DNA from: Nonomuraea sp. NBC_00507
GTDB taxonomy: Bacteria; Actinomycetota; Actinomycetes; Streptosporangiales; Streptosporangiaceae
Reading direction: 5' to 3'
Length of the DNA: 64,000 bases
NCBI RefSeq assembly: GCF_036013525.1
Contig: NZ_CP107853.1
Span: 2,170,001-2,234,000, forward strand
The notes below the pieces were generated by a model. The model saw only the letters and a program-made list of their open reading frames with translations. It was not told the DNA's origin and did not search any database. Each line of letters starts with the position of its first letter. Positions within the stretch are counted from its first letter, which is position 1. Positions 2,330-6,288 of the stretch are shown piece by piece. The position numbers were made by a program, and so were the translations under genes.

Positions 2330-3049
2330 GTGAGCCGTTATTCACGTGTGGTGGTCAAGTTGAGCGGCGAGGCGCTGGCCGGGCCTTCGGGCTGGGGCGC
2401 GGACCCGGCGAGTCTCGCACAGCTGGCAGACGAGCTGCTGTCGGTCCACGCACTCGGAGTCGAGCTCGCCGTGGTGATCGGCGGCGGCAACTACTTCCGG
2501 GGCCGGATGGCCGAAGGATGGGGCATCGGACGAGCCGAGGCCGACAACATCGGCATGCTCGGCACGGTGATGAACGCGCTGATGTTGCGCGGTGTCCTGA
2601 CGGCACGCAGTGAGTCGGACGTGCGGGTGATGACGGCGGTGCCGATGCAGAGTGTCGCCGAGCCGTTCATCCGGCTACGCGGGGACCGGCACCTGCGGCG
2701 CGGACTGATCGTGCTGCTGGCAGGCGGCATCGGGCAGCCGTACGTCACCACCGACTACCCGGCGGTCCAGCGGGCGCTGGAGTTGGAAGCCGACGCGCTG
2801 CTGGTCGCCAAGCGCGGCGTGGACGGCGTCTACGACCGCGACCCGAACCGCGATCCCGACGCCAAACGCTTCACCACTCTCACCTATCGGGAGGCGCTGG
2901 ACGCAGGGGTCAGGGTCATGGATCAGAGCGCTTTCGTCCTAGCCAACGAGCAAGGGCTCCTCATGCACGTCTTCGACGTCGCCGAGGTGGGCGCGATGAG
3001 CGCGATCTGCCAAGGCGAGGACATCGGCACCCGCATCACCCGCGATTGA
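2330..3049 (+). CDS. pyrH: UMP kinase (PyrH-like), stand-alone copy
   Basis: I place the start at GTG 2330, because GGAG lies at 2323-2326 and the protein then begins SRYSRVVVKLSGEALAG, as PyrH proteins do. An upstream in-frame GTG at 2264 would add 22 low-complexity residues. The 239-aa product has the amino-acid-kinase fold signatures: VVKLSGEAL (phosphate loop), VVIGGGNYFRG, and KRGVDGVYDRDP, with TDYPAVQRALE matching the UMP/nucleotide region. It would make UDP from UMP and ATP. In most actinomycetes pyrH sits in the rpsB-tsf-pyrH-frr operon, and none of those neighbours is here, so this may be a second copy. Its stop overlaps the convergent methyltransferase by 14 nt. Confidence 0.8.
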   Translation: MSRYSRVVVKLSGEALAGPSGWGADPASLAQLADELLSVHALGVELAVVIGGGNYFRGRMAEGWGIGRAEADNIGMLGTVMNALMLRGVLTARSESDVRVMTAVPMQSVAEPFIRLRGDRHLRRGLIVLLAGGIGQPYVTTDYPAVQRALELEADALLVAKRGVDGVYDRDPNRDPDAKRFTTLTYREALDAGVRVMDQSAFVLANEQGLLMHVFDVAEVGAMSAICQGEDIGTRITRD

Positions 3050-4184
3050 GCACCTGATCGGGTGTGTCCAGCCAAACGCACTGCCCTTCCGGGGTCACCG
3101 TCATCCCGAACCGGTCACGTCCGGGCTCGCCCCAGCCGACCCATCGGAAGTAGGCGTCGGTCACCTCCTCCCACAAGGCACGGTGGCCCATCTGGTAGAC
3201 GGTGTGGTCGGGGTAGCCGCGTTGGTGGACGGCCACTGCCCACTGGCCGGGGTCGGCCGGGTCCATCACGTATGTCAGAAATCGAGCCTCTTCGCGGATG
3301 ATGTGCGCGTACAGGCCGGTGATGGCCGCCATCGCCAGGTCGGCGCCGGGCGGTGCGAGCCCGATGGTGCGGGGGTGCACCTGAGTCGGGTGGCGTCGAC
3401 CGCTGCCGTCATCGGTGGCATAGGGGAGGGGCCGCTGGGAGCGCATCATCATGTATGAGGCGTAGCCAGGAAAGCGGCCGATCGCGGTCCCGTCCCGCAA
3501 AGTCACGAGCCGCAACACATGATCGTCGCCGAAGCCAGGGCAATATGGGGCGACGATGACCCCTCCCGGCCGACACTGCTCGATCCACGCGTACGGGACT
3601 GTTCGGACACCGCAGGTGACGTGCACGCGATCGTACGGCGCTCGCTCGGGACAACCCTCCGCGCCATCGCCGACAATCAGATGTGGCTGCACGTCCACTG
3701 CGGCGAGATTCTTGGCAGCCTGCTCGGCTACGGCCTTATCGATCTCCATCGACATCACACTTCCGTGCGGACCGACCAGGTGAGCGAGCAATGCGGCCGT
3801 CCACCCCGTGCCGGTGCCCACCTCCAGCACCCGGTCGTCAGGCTCGGGGTCGAGGAGTTGCAGTAGATGCGCGACCGTGCTGGGCGCGGAGGAGGAGGAC
3901 GTGTAGTCCCCTGTGCGGGCCCTGATGTCGGTGGCGCCATCGTCGAGCTGGATCACGATGGGAGCCCGGGAGTAAACCGTGTCCCACCAGGTCTCGGGAT
4001 CGCTGCCCCGATCGATGACAAACGCCTCATCAGGACTGCCGGGCGTGGCCAGCGCCACATCGGGGATGAACGGGTGGCGCGGCACCGCGCGGAAGGCTTC
4101 AACGACGAAGCCCTGGATATCCTCCAACCTGCTGATGTACTCGGCCAGTCGCTCAATGCGCTGGGCGGTGGCAGCCTCATCCAC
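3036..4184 (-). CDS. PIMT-like O-methyltransferase of a probable imiditide RiPP locus
   Basis: The 382-aa protein has the protein-L-isoaspartyl methyltransferase fold: SSSSAPSTVAHLL, then the SAM loop RVLEVGTGTGWTAALLAHLV at about residues 145-164, then VGDGAEGCPERAPYDRVHVT. Unlike housekeeping PIMT (about 220 aa) it has a long C-terminal extension. That extension ends with an aromatic LWEEVTDAYFRWVGWGEPGR and RFGMTVTPEGQCVWLDTPD, the tail type seen in RiPP-associated PIMT homologues. Its GTG start uses the last base of the preceding peptide gene's TAG stop (TAGTG), so the two are translationally coupled. The inferred role is methylation of an Asp side chain in that peptide, leading to aspartimide. 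Family assignment is firm, the RiPP role is inference. Confidence 0.85.
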   Translation of the reverse strand: MDEAATAQRIERLAEYISRLEDIQGFVVEAFRAVPRHPFIPDVALATPGSPDEAFVIDRGSDPETWWDTVYSRAPIVIQLDDGATDIRARTGDYTSSSSAPSTVAHLLQLLDPEPDDRVLEVGTGTGWTAALLAHLVGPHGSVMSMEIDKAVAEQAAKNLAAVDVQPHLIVGDGAEGCPERAPYDRVHVTCGVRTVPYAWIEQCRPGGVIVAPYCPGFGDDHVLRLVTLRDGTAIGRFPGYASYMMMRSQRPLPYATDDGSGRRHPTQVHPRTIGLAPPGADLAMAAITGLYAHIIREEARFLTYVMDPADPGQWAVAVHQRGYPDHTVYQMGHRALWEEVTDAYFRWVGWGEPGRDRFGMTVTPEGQCVWLDTPDQVLNRG

Positions 4185-4318
4185 TACTTCTTGCCGCCCT
4201 TGCCCTTGCCGTCCGTGTGCTTACCGCCCGACTCCTGGTGGCGGTCAGGCGTGACCTTCCTGGGGTCGGCCTGGAACGGCCGGTCCTGGGGGCTCTTGGG
4301 GTCCTCATGCTTGCCCAT
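4184..4318 (-). CDS. Small charged peptide, candidate imiditide precursor
   Basis: ATG 4318 to TAG 4184 encodes 44 residues. It begins MGKHEDPKSPQDRPFQADPR and ends with a basic Gly/Lys tail (residues 37-44). It has no Cys, few hydrophobic residues, six Asp, eight Lys and four Arg. A purine-rich AAAGAGAGAG about 7 nt upstream can serve as ribosome-binding site. The stop overlaps the start of the PIMT-like methyltransferase. Known imiditide precursors are short, linear and highly charged, and are encoded next to the methyltransferase. Asp36-Gly37 (in KHTDGKGK) is the chemically most likely aspartimide site, since Asp-Gly cyclises most readily. Asp6, 12, 18 and 25 are alternatives; all but Asp12 sit in D-P or D-R contexts that disfavour cyclisation. 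Confidence 0.75.
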   Translation of the reverse strand: MGKHEDPKSPQDRPFQADPRKVTPDRHQESGGKHTDGKGKGGKK

Positions 4319-4368
4319 GCAAAGGCTCTCTCTTTCGGCTCGTGCCAAAGCTCATCGTGAGCGTACGG

Positions 4369-4895: not shown

Positions 4896-4944
4896 ACGTG
4901 TGTGCTCACAGCATGCCCACGCGCCGACCGAAAGGGATCATCAG

Positions 4945-6288
4945 GTGGAAACACCGGATCTCCCGCTTCCGGACCTGCTGAAACACTTGCGGGATACGGC
5001 TGGAATGACTCAGCAGCGGTTGGCGGACGAACTGTGCGCCATCACCGGCACGTTCACGCTCACCCGGCACGAGATCGGCCGGTGGGAGCAGGGCCGAGTG
5101 CGGCCGCGTGCCTGGCTCCCCGCTCTGGCAGACCTTTTCAAGGTCGATCTGGAAATCCTTCGAAGAGCGCCGAATAGGAAGGCTTCGGTCGCTCCATACA
5201 CTGATCCCACTGACGATGTGGAGCGGGTGAGCGAGGTGCTACGCCGGACGTTCCTGAGGCAGGGGATCGCGGCCGCCACCATGCCCGCCATGTGCCTGCA
5301 CCGGGAACATCGCATCATCCAGGCCCTCGATGCGATTGCCGAGGAACCACTCGGCGGCGTTGTGGATGGCATCGGCGAACTCATCGACCACTACGCAGTG
5401 ACGATCTGCACTCTTCCCCCGGCGGACGTGTACGACGAACTCCTCACCGTCAGGACATATGCGAGCCGCATGCTCCAGCGCCTGGGAACAGTTTCGTCGC
5501 ATACCGACCTCGCCGTCGCCGTCGGCTGGCTGTCTCACCTGCTTGCCGTGGCCGCCTGCGACATGGGCCAGCACGCGTCAGCCCGGGTGTGGTGTTCTGA
5601 TGCCGAGCGCCGTAGCCGGGACGCACGACATCCTGAGCTGGCGGCATGGGCCCTTCTGACCCGAGCGATGATCGCGTGGTATCAAGGGCAACCGCGCCAG
5701 TCGGCGATCCTCTCCGCCAAGGGCCAGAAGAACGCCCCTGAGGGCACGGTGGTCCACGCCAAGCTGGCCTCGCAGGAGATGCGCGCGGCCGCGATGGCCG
5801 GTGATGCCGACCGCATGACACGCGCTCGGCGTCGAGCGAGCGAAGCGATCGCGGTGCTTCCCGCCAATACCCCTGTGACAGGTGCCTTCTCCATCAATCT
5901 GGCGGAAGACCCGCCGTACACCGCAACGTCTCTGCTGTTCGTAGGCCGCAATGAAGAGTCTGTGGCCGCCACCAACCGCGTGATCCAGACTGTCTACCAG
6001 CCGGAGGCGCGCCAACGTGGCGAGCACCCATCCGGCTATGCGCGCTCGCTGCTCATCCTGGGACTGGCCCAGGCCGGTCTGGGCCGCTTGGATGAGTCCG
6101 TAGCCGCAGGCCAAGCCGCGCTCGCAGGCAGCCGCCCAGTCTGGCCGACCATGGTGCTCGCGGGCAAACTCGACAAGGTTCTGACACAGCAATTCCCCCA
6201 TGCTCGCCAATCCGCGGAATACCACGCCCGCTATCTGGAGGCGATCCGCATTCCGGCAGGACGTCGACCTTGTGAGGATCGCGAATGA
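4945..6288 (+). CDS. XRE-family HTH regulator with a TPR-like C-terminal domain
   Basis: I start at GTG 4945, which follows AAAGGGA at 4931-4937. The 447-aa protein begins METPDLPLPDLLKHLRDTAG. The helix-turn-helix covers about residues 11-68 and includes MTQQRLADELCAITG and EIGRWEQGR. The remaining 350 residues are Ala/Arg-rich helices of the kind found in TPR-type regulators (for example ARVWCSDAERRSRDARHPEL). Such proteins sense a small ligand or a peptide. The gene is divergent from the peptide/methyltransferase operon and overlaps the downstream DUF218 gene by ATGA, which suggests it controls this locus. Confidence 0.85.
   Translation: METPDLPLPDLLKHLRDTAGMTQQRLADELCAITGTFTLTRHEIGRWEQGRVRPRAWLPALADLFKVDLEILRRAPNRKASVAPYTDPTDDVERVSEVLRRTFLRQGIAAATMPAMCLHREHRIIQALDAIAEEPLGGVVDGIGELIDHYAVTICTLPPADVYDELLTVRTYASRMLQRLGTVSSHTDLAVAVGWLSHLLAVAACDMGQHASARVWCSDAERRSRDARHPELAAWALLTRAMIAWYQGQPRQSAILSAKGQKNAPEGTVVHAKLASQEMRAAAMAGDADRMTRARRRASEAIAVLPANTPVTGAFSINLAEDPPYTATSLLFVGRNEESVAATNRVIQTVYQPEARQRGEHPSGYARSLLILGLAQAGLGRLDESVAAGQAALAGSRPVWPTMVLAGKLDKVLTQQFPHARQSAEYHARYLEAIRIPAGRRPCEDRE

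Follow-up and report, generated by a model that had tools for sequence, protein, structure and literature searches.

The window analyzed here, a 64,000-nucleotide stretch of the 12.9-Mb genome of Nonomuraea sp. NBC_00507, contains two overlapping genes on the minus strand. The upstream gene (4184-4318) starts with ATG, ends with a TAG stop at 4186-4184 and encodes a basic, Cys-free peptide of 44 amino acids (MGKHEDPKSPQDRPFQADPRKVTPDRHQESGGKHTDGKGKGGKK), for which homologs lie upstream of related enzymes; the downstream gene (3036-4184) starts with GTG at 4184-4182 and encodes a 382-aa PIMT-like peptide aspartyl methyltransferase (PAMT), identified by its reading frame and family matches. Stop and start codons share one nucleotide within TAGTG, and the pairing and junction described in a first-pass annotation of this DNA were confirmed from the sequence and its open reading frames. 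Upstream of the peptide gene (4319-4350, minus strand), a purine-rich stretch (aaagagagag), some 7 nt ahead of the start codon, is likely its ribosome-binding site, as judged from the letters. The peptide is rich in Gly (7 of 44), Pro (5), Asp (5) and Lys (8), and like type I pamtides it lacks the CxxCxGxG zinc motif of type II.

Beside the cassette lies P0003 (4372-4605, minus strand), a small 78-aa protein of no known family that is loosely associated with it. The longer open reading frame at this place had no match at E ≤1 in NCBIfam or Pfam, and P0003 itself had none in PHROGs; the protein, which has the pattern TTTKRFPGWEI.EGAGGGYIAFR, was found at 46 places in 26 of 54 genomes of the genus. 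P0003 adjoins the cassette in a same-species relative, in N. basaltis (L152) and in genome G044 (L151), and six distinct loci have it near the enzyme, namely those of the window, Nonomuraea sp. G32, L152, L151 and L041 and a second NBC_00507 locus, where 3.5 kb separate it from the enzyme. In L147 a less related enzyme lies 3.4 kb away from it, and the stretches taken from L146, L148 and L149 contain P0003 but no enzyme. The surroundings of the cassette in G044 also include epimerase, membrane-transport and P450 genes homologous to those of the window; N. basaltis has the trio of P0003, precursor and enzyme without these neighbors. On the other strand, a HTH/TPR regulator of the NsdA family (4900-6288, plus strand; assigned by family matches) was considered as a part of the cassette and rejected, since close homologs next to the cassette are confined to the same species; a 28%-identical one is found near the L104 enzyme. 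The regulator therefore probably stands outside the cassette, judging by these neighborhoods.

The Pfam PCMT domain covers residues 94-214 of the methyltransferase, whereas the match to TIGR04188 (ATP-grasp-associated methyltransferase) runs from residue 27 to 368, against positions 16-361 of 363, with an E value of 3.5e-82 and 276.7 bits, below the 380-bit cutoff of that family. Because the TIGR04188 match reaches residue 368 while PCMT ends at 214, the long C-terminal extension claimed in the first-pass annotation is real. The enzyme has the SAM motif GTGTG and, as in PAMTs, combines a C-terminal domain of more than 100 aa beyond PCMT with a WXXXGXP motif, here WVGWGEP, in which W348, G352 and P354 do not vary across an alignment of 14 relatives. 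A search of solved structures matched the catalytic part of the enzyme only (best 1dl5). A plasmid search gave 84 records, 66 of them from Streptomyces; in the 20 records listed, PAMT-like enzymes occurred at 36-40% identity.

Homologs of the 44-aa peptide lie directly upstream of many orthologous enzymes in the genus, making it more than a chance reading frame. A 22-row peptide profile run against 54 same-genus genomes matched 37 places in 26 genomes, 20 of which (the window peptide and 19 others) were rows of the profile and hence matched by construction; by hand count, the remaining 17 comprise eight peptides directly beside a PIMT-like enzyme and nine solo peptides. Nei-Gojobori omega was below 1 in nine of ten pairs of five close precursor orthologs (0.18-0.71), and the tenth pair, at 1.75, has just two synonymous changes. 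All eleven tested window genes are present in Nonomuraea sp. G32 (G098, L039), a strain of the same species whose enzyme is 97% identical to that of the window; its precursor differs at seven of 44 positions and its enzyme by about 3%, which argues that the peptide evolves faster than the enzyme. With upstream homologs, profile matches, conserved residues and omega in hand, we ruled out a chance open reading frame, and the peptide does have homologs beside PIMT-like genes, the lack of which would have told against the first-pass reading. It is likewise scarcely credible that the pair consists of a housekeeping repair PIMT and a chance upstream reading frame: though the PCMT domain is common to housekeeping PIMTs and the window enzyme, the long C-terminal domain of the latter aligns with the RiPP-associated family, and conservation of the peptide in sequence and position across loci is a strong point against such an origin.

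To survey the flanks, 31 open reading frames of at least 90 aa, chosen by codon composition between about -11 kb and +24 kb, were scanned with Pfam, together with the precursor. No ATP-grasp, LanB/LanC or asparagine-synthase-type cyclase was found among them, and eight of 26 flank reading frames scanned at E 1e-5 had no Pfam match. A TIGR04187 search of the genome returned a sole SAV_5884-type ATP-grasp match, which is partial and 10 Mb away, though some match to the SAV_5884 family occurs in 42 of the 54 genus genomes. The cassette thus lacks the adjacent ATP-grasp ligase of group 13 graspetides, we rejected a graspetide or lanthipeptide context, and the earlier statement that no ATP-grasp ligase, lanthipeptide synthetase or lasso cyclase lies nearby held up in the flank scans and the TIGR04187 search.

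Imiditides, or type I pamtides, are characterized in the literature as two-gene loci in which a precursor of roughly 45 aa, rich in Gly, Pro, Asp and Lys, is paired with a PIMT homolog that has a C-terminal domain (PMC13001092, PMC10787088, PMC11048544), with 1,414 loci reported (PMC13001092, PMC10787088). According to the same two sources, the pairs NmaA/NmaM from N. maritima and SpaA/SpaM from S. sparsogenes were expressed in E. coli. We retained 79 loci from 187 relatives and added three from NBC_00507; a heuristic picked a candidate short precursor upstream of the enzyme in 69 of these 82 loci, four of the picks being judged wrong or doubtful, and found none in 13. A tree of 91 proteins, which left out enzymes of fewer than 300 residues (L079, L092, L093) and a graspetide locus without an enzyme in its flank (L154), placed the window enzyme and that of L072, from N. 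maritima CGMCC 4.5681, in a 54-row clade (SH-aLRT 99) free of graspetide-linked enzymes. We infer that L072 is the NmaA/NmaM locus from its species, two-gene layout, DEDGD loop and the Asp-His in its precursor, and reading the clade as a grouping with NmaM depends on this identification. Nine of 11 graspetide-linked enzymes formed a separate clade (support 100), and the other two were placed elsewhere.

The two stragglers, together with the fact that, of the named families, the ATP-grasp-associated TIGR04188 matches best, are what might be said for the enzyme being a secondary modifier of a graspetide or lanthipeptide encoded elsewhere in the genome, with the 44-aa peptide incidental. We consider this very unlikely, because the peptide and the enzyme have been kept together across loci, the enzyme groups with that of N. 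maritima, and the one ATP-grasp match is distant and partial; the search for lanthipeptide and lasso enzymes covered the flanks. Instead, a short precursor directly adjoins a PIMT-like enzyme and the pair recurs in relatives, so that assignment of the locus as a two-gene imiditide (type I pamtide) cassette is well supported. The imiditide assignment of the first-pass annotation is therefore sustained by the extension, the WXXXGXP motif, the clade with the N. maritima enzyme, the conserved pair and the flanks, in which no other RiPP enzyme was found; so is its proposal of a new family member, the locus being a new representative of a class for which some 1,400 loci have been predicted.

The residue that would be modified is most likely a different one from that first proposed. 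The earlier prediction was Asp36-Gly37 (Asp36 codon at 4211-4213, minus strand), to be checked by its conservation in homologous loci. We aligned with MAFFT 23 precursors of the same architecture, chosen by eye from 70 candidates (the 69 heuristic picks and L151), after giving the L072 precursor its full-length start, which the heuristic had shortened. Asp25, Gly32, His34, Gly2 and His4 are invariant in all 23, whereas the Asp36 column is Asp in just eight and the neighboring column in 12. An alignment-free count gave the same picture, with Asp exactly seven residues before G-x-H in 23 of 23. We therefore predict Asp25-Arg26 (Asp25 codon at 4244-4246, minus strand), seven residues before the invariant Gly32-x-His34, as the most likely site on the strength of the invariant column and fixed spacing, and the alignment led us to reject Asp36-Gly37. 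The residue following Asp25 varies, being His in five precursors, Glu in five, Gly in four, Gln in four, Arg in two and Tyr, Thr and Lys in one each. In a wider set of 65 candidates, left after four of the 69 heuristic picks (L003, L069, L084, L099) had been set aside as wrong or doubtful, an Asp lies 4-11 residues before G-x-[HR] in 59 and is absent in six.

Asp-Gly is the classic, chemically easy aspartimide sequence. This, with the Asp-Gly at Asp36 shared by the near relatives L042 and L151 and the second Asp-His of the N. maritima peptide at the corresponding place, is the case for modification at Asp36-Gly37 within the same class. We regard that site as improbable: other residues stand at Asp36 in, for example, L041, L043, L048 and L086, and the same-species relative has ADDK in place of the window's TDGK, with Asp for Gly37, while its Asp25 is followed by His. 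In NmaA, according to PMC13001092, His follows the modified Asp. The N. maritima peptide of L072 has Asp-His at both places, corresponding to Asp25 and Asp36, so the published statement that His follows the modified Asp is not decisive by itself. A simple rule for Nonomuraea-type precursors would instead be that the modified Asp is predicted seven residues before G-x-H.

One feature of the N. maritima enzyme does not recur in the window. Replacing the DEDGD loop of NmaM strongly lowers modification, as reported in PMC13001092; at this stretch the window enzyme has REEA and a four-column gap, and REE plus one residue followed by the same gap is also found in its six nearest relatives (L039, L042, L151, L040, L041, L043). 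The length of the loop varies widely across 83 aligned enzymes, for which reason we rejected DEDGD as a class marker. The window enzyme is thus part of a subclade that lacks this acidic loop, a proposed guide to substrate recognition, and recognition may differ accordingly: either another surface serves it, or a shorter acidic stretch is enough.

Taken together, we propose that the cassette is very probably an imiditide locus in which the PAMT would turn one Asp, most likely Asp25, into an aspartimide. The gene for the 44-aa basic peptide precedes the methyltransferase gene, which it overlaps at TAGTG; with SAM as methyl donor, the enzyme would methylate a single Asp side chain in an otherwise unmodified linear peptide; the methyl ester would cyclize onto the following backbone amide, yielding the aspartimide, which could later open, mostly to isoaspartate. 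That the enzyme alone acts, together with the chemistry, the recognition of a linear substrate and the order of steps, is inferred by analogy with NmaA/NmaM and SpaA/SpaM. Our reading is weakened by the missing DEDGD loop, the TIGR04188 score below cutoff and the rarity of Arg after the Asp (2 of 23), as well as by the 13 of 82 loci without a precursor, the six of 65 candidates without a spaced Asp and the chemical ease of Asp36-Gly37.

Further loci of this type were seen in the same genome and genus. NBC_00507 has a second imiditide-type cassette (L001, L143) about 50 kb away, with its enzyme at C1:2122745-2123899 and the peptide MGKHKDPSSPKEGPLDPKRGGGQGGSNNDENKTGSGQHSGGKGKGK; in the tree N. 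maritima L072 groups more closely with this cassette than with that of the window. A third long PIMT-like enzyme of this genome (C1:8678282-8679385; L003, L144) is 45% identical to the window enzyme, and the reading frame picked upstream of it by the heuristic is Cys/Pro-rich and doubtful as a precursor. L071 (N. longispora) and L069 (N. rhizosphaerae) have sister full-length enzymes with upstream candidate peptides devoid of the Asp motif, possibly because the core was lost or the true precursor was missed. Two precursor-like peptides per locus occur in L068 (9731-9943) and L041 (5322-5942 and 7732-7983), the latter with two enzyme-peptide pairs in tandem.

The nine peptides that the 22-row imiditide profile matched with no PIMT nearby, among the 54 genus genomes, belong to a larger family. 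A profile of these solo peptides (A4) matched 31 places in 28 of the 54 genomes, five of them enzyme-linked precursors and 26 solo peptides, one in each of 26 genomes including N. maritima (G035) and NBC_00507 itself (C1:5485855-5485977, minus strand; L166/L133). They share the pattern VGRH[AE]KP...S[RK]G[KR]H (L166/L133, L165, L167-L169, L172-L191, L195). In a draw of 200 genomes of the family, A4 gave seven matches, of which five were solo peptides in the genus and two were enzyme-linked peptides in another genus. All 26 solo peptides have a GTG start, most with an AAGGAG-like ribosome-binding site, and omega ranged from 0.10 to 0.57 in 15 pairs of six of them. No methyltransferase match at E ≤1e-3 was found in the 10-18 kb around each of the 26; the L140 region holds a 15-bit methyltransferase match (E 0.0033). 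All share one chromosomal neighborhood, with one flanking gene present in 26 of 26 and another in 24 of 26, both misses being regions that end at contig ends; from reading their sequences by eye, we take the neighbors to be FAD oxidase, CFA synthase, AMP-binding, GMC, P450, APH, HAD and ADH genes. Homology of the solo peptides to imiditide precursors is supported by comparing the two profiles with each other (96.5%, E 9.5e-10) and by the five of 26 members tried, which scored 18.5-35.6 bits when no decoy, out of some 69,000 that were reversed or shuffled, scored above 11.9 bits, though recovery of just nine of the 26 by the imiditide profile alone at E 1e-3 counts against it.

All 26 solo peptides retain both G-x-H motifs. 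Seven residues ahead of G-[KR]-H, 15 of them have Asp, three each have Asn, Ser and Glu, and one each has Ala and Leu. Asp at this place in 23 of 23 enzyme-linked precursors versus 15 of 26 solo peptides (Fisher p 3e-4, relatedness ignored) favors Asp25 as the position important to the methyltransferase, and suggests that the rest of the scaffold may have a role apart from the aspartimide. Modification in trans by an imiditide-type enzyme is unlikely in five solo-bearing genomes (G050, G007, G017, G024, G002), as these contain no close full-length enzyme of this type (best E 8e-24 to 5e-27), other PIMT-like enzymes being possible. In the open-access library searched, we found no report of such a methyltransferase-free peptide family. 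We tentatively raise the possibility, somewhat short of an even chance in our view, that the imiditide scaffold predates aspartimide chemistry or is independent of it, with the solo paralog (G-R-H-[AE]-K-P ... S-[RK]-G-[KR]-H) inherited vertically, the peptide itself having a cellular job and the cassettes being derivatives. If so, the methyltransferase in imiditide cassettes would switch or tune the peptide's own job, and the solo peptide would be a natural control, target or partner for finding the biological role of imiditides; a methyltransferase-free homolog within the cassette-bearing NBC_00507 genome offers a genetic handle on that role.

Compared to known systems, the window cassette is most like NmaA/NmaM (taken as L072), with which it shares the two-gene layout, the precursor scaffold G-[KR]-H...D-x6-G-K-H...KK, the PAMT C-terminal domain, WXXXGXP and the 54-row clade, at 57% identity between the enzymes. 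It differs in that NmaM has the DEDGD acidic loop and the window enzyme does not, in that Arg follows the predicted modified Asp in the window peptide and His in NmaA, and in that the N. maritima enzyme is nearer to the second NBC_00507 locus (L001) than to the window enzyme. With SpaA/SpaM of Streptomyces sparsogenes it has in common a roughly 45-aa Gly/Pro/Asp-rich precursor, the PAMT alone acting on a linear peptide in that system (PMC10787088). The graspimiditides (fuscimiditide and amycolimiditide, of group 13 graspetides) have a homologous PIMT-like enzyme (TIGR04188) but, according to PMC13001092, depend on an ATP-grasp ligase and on a substrate that is cross-linked, whereas no such ligase was found near the window cassette, whose precursor would be modified as a linear peptide.
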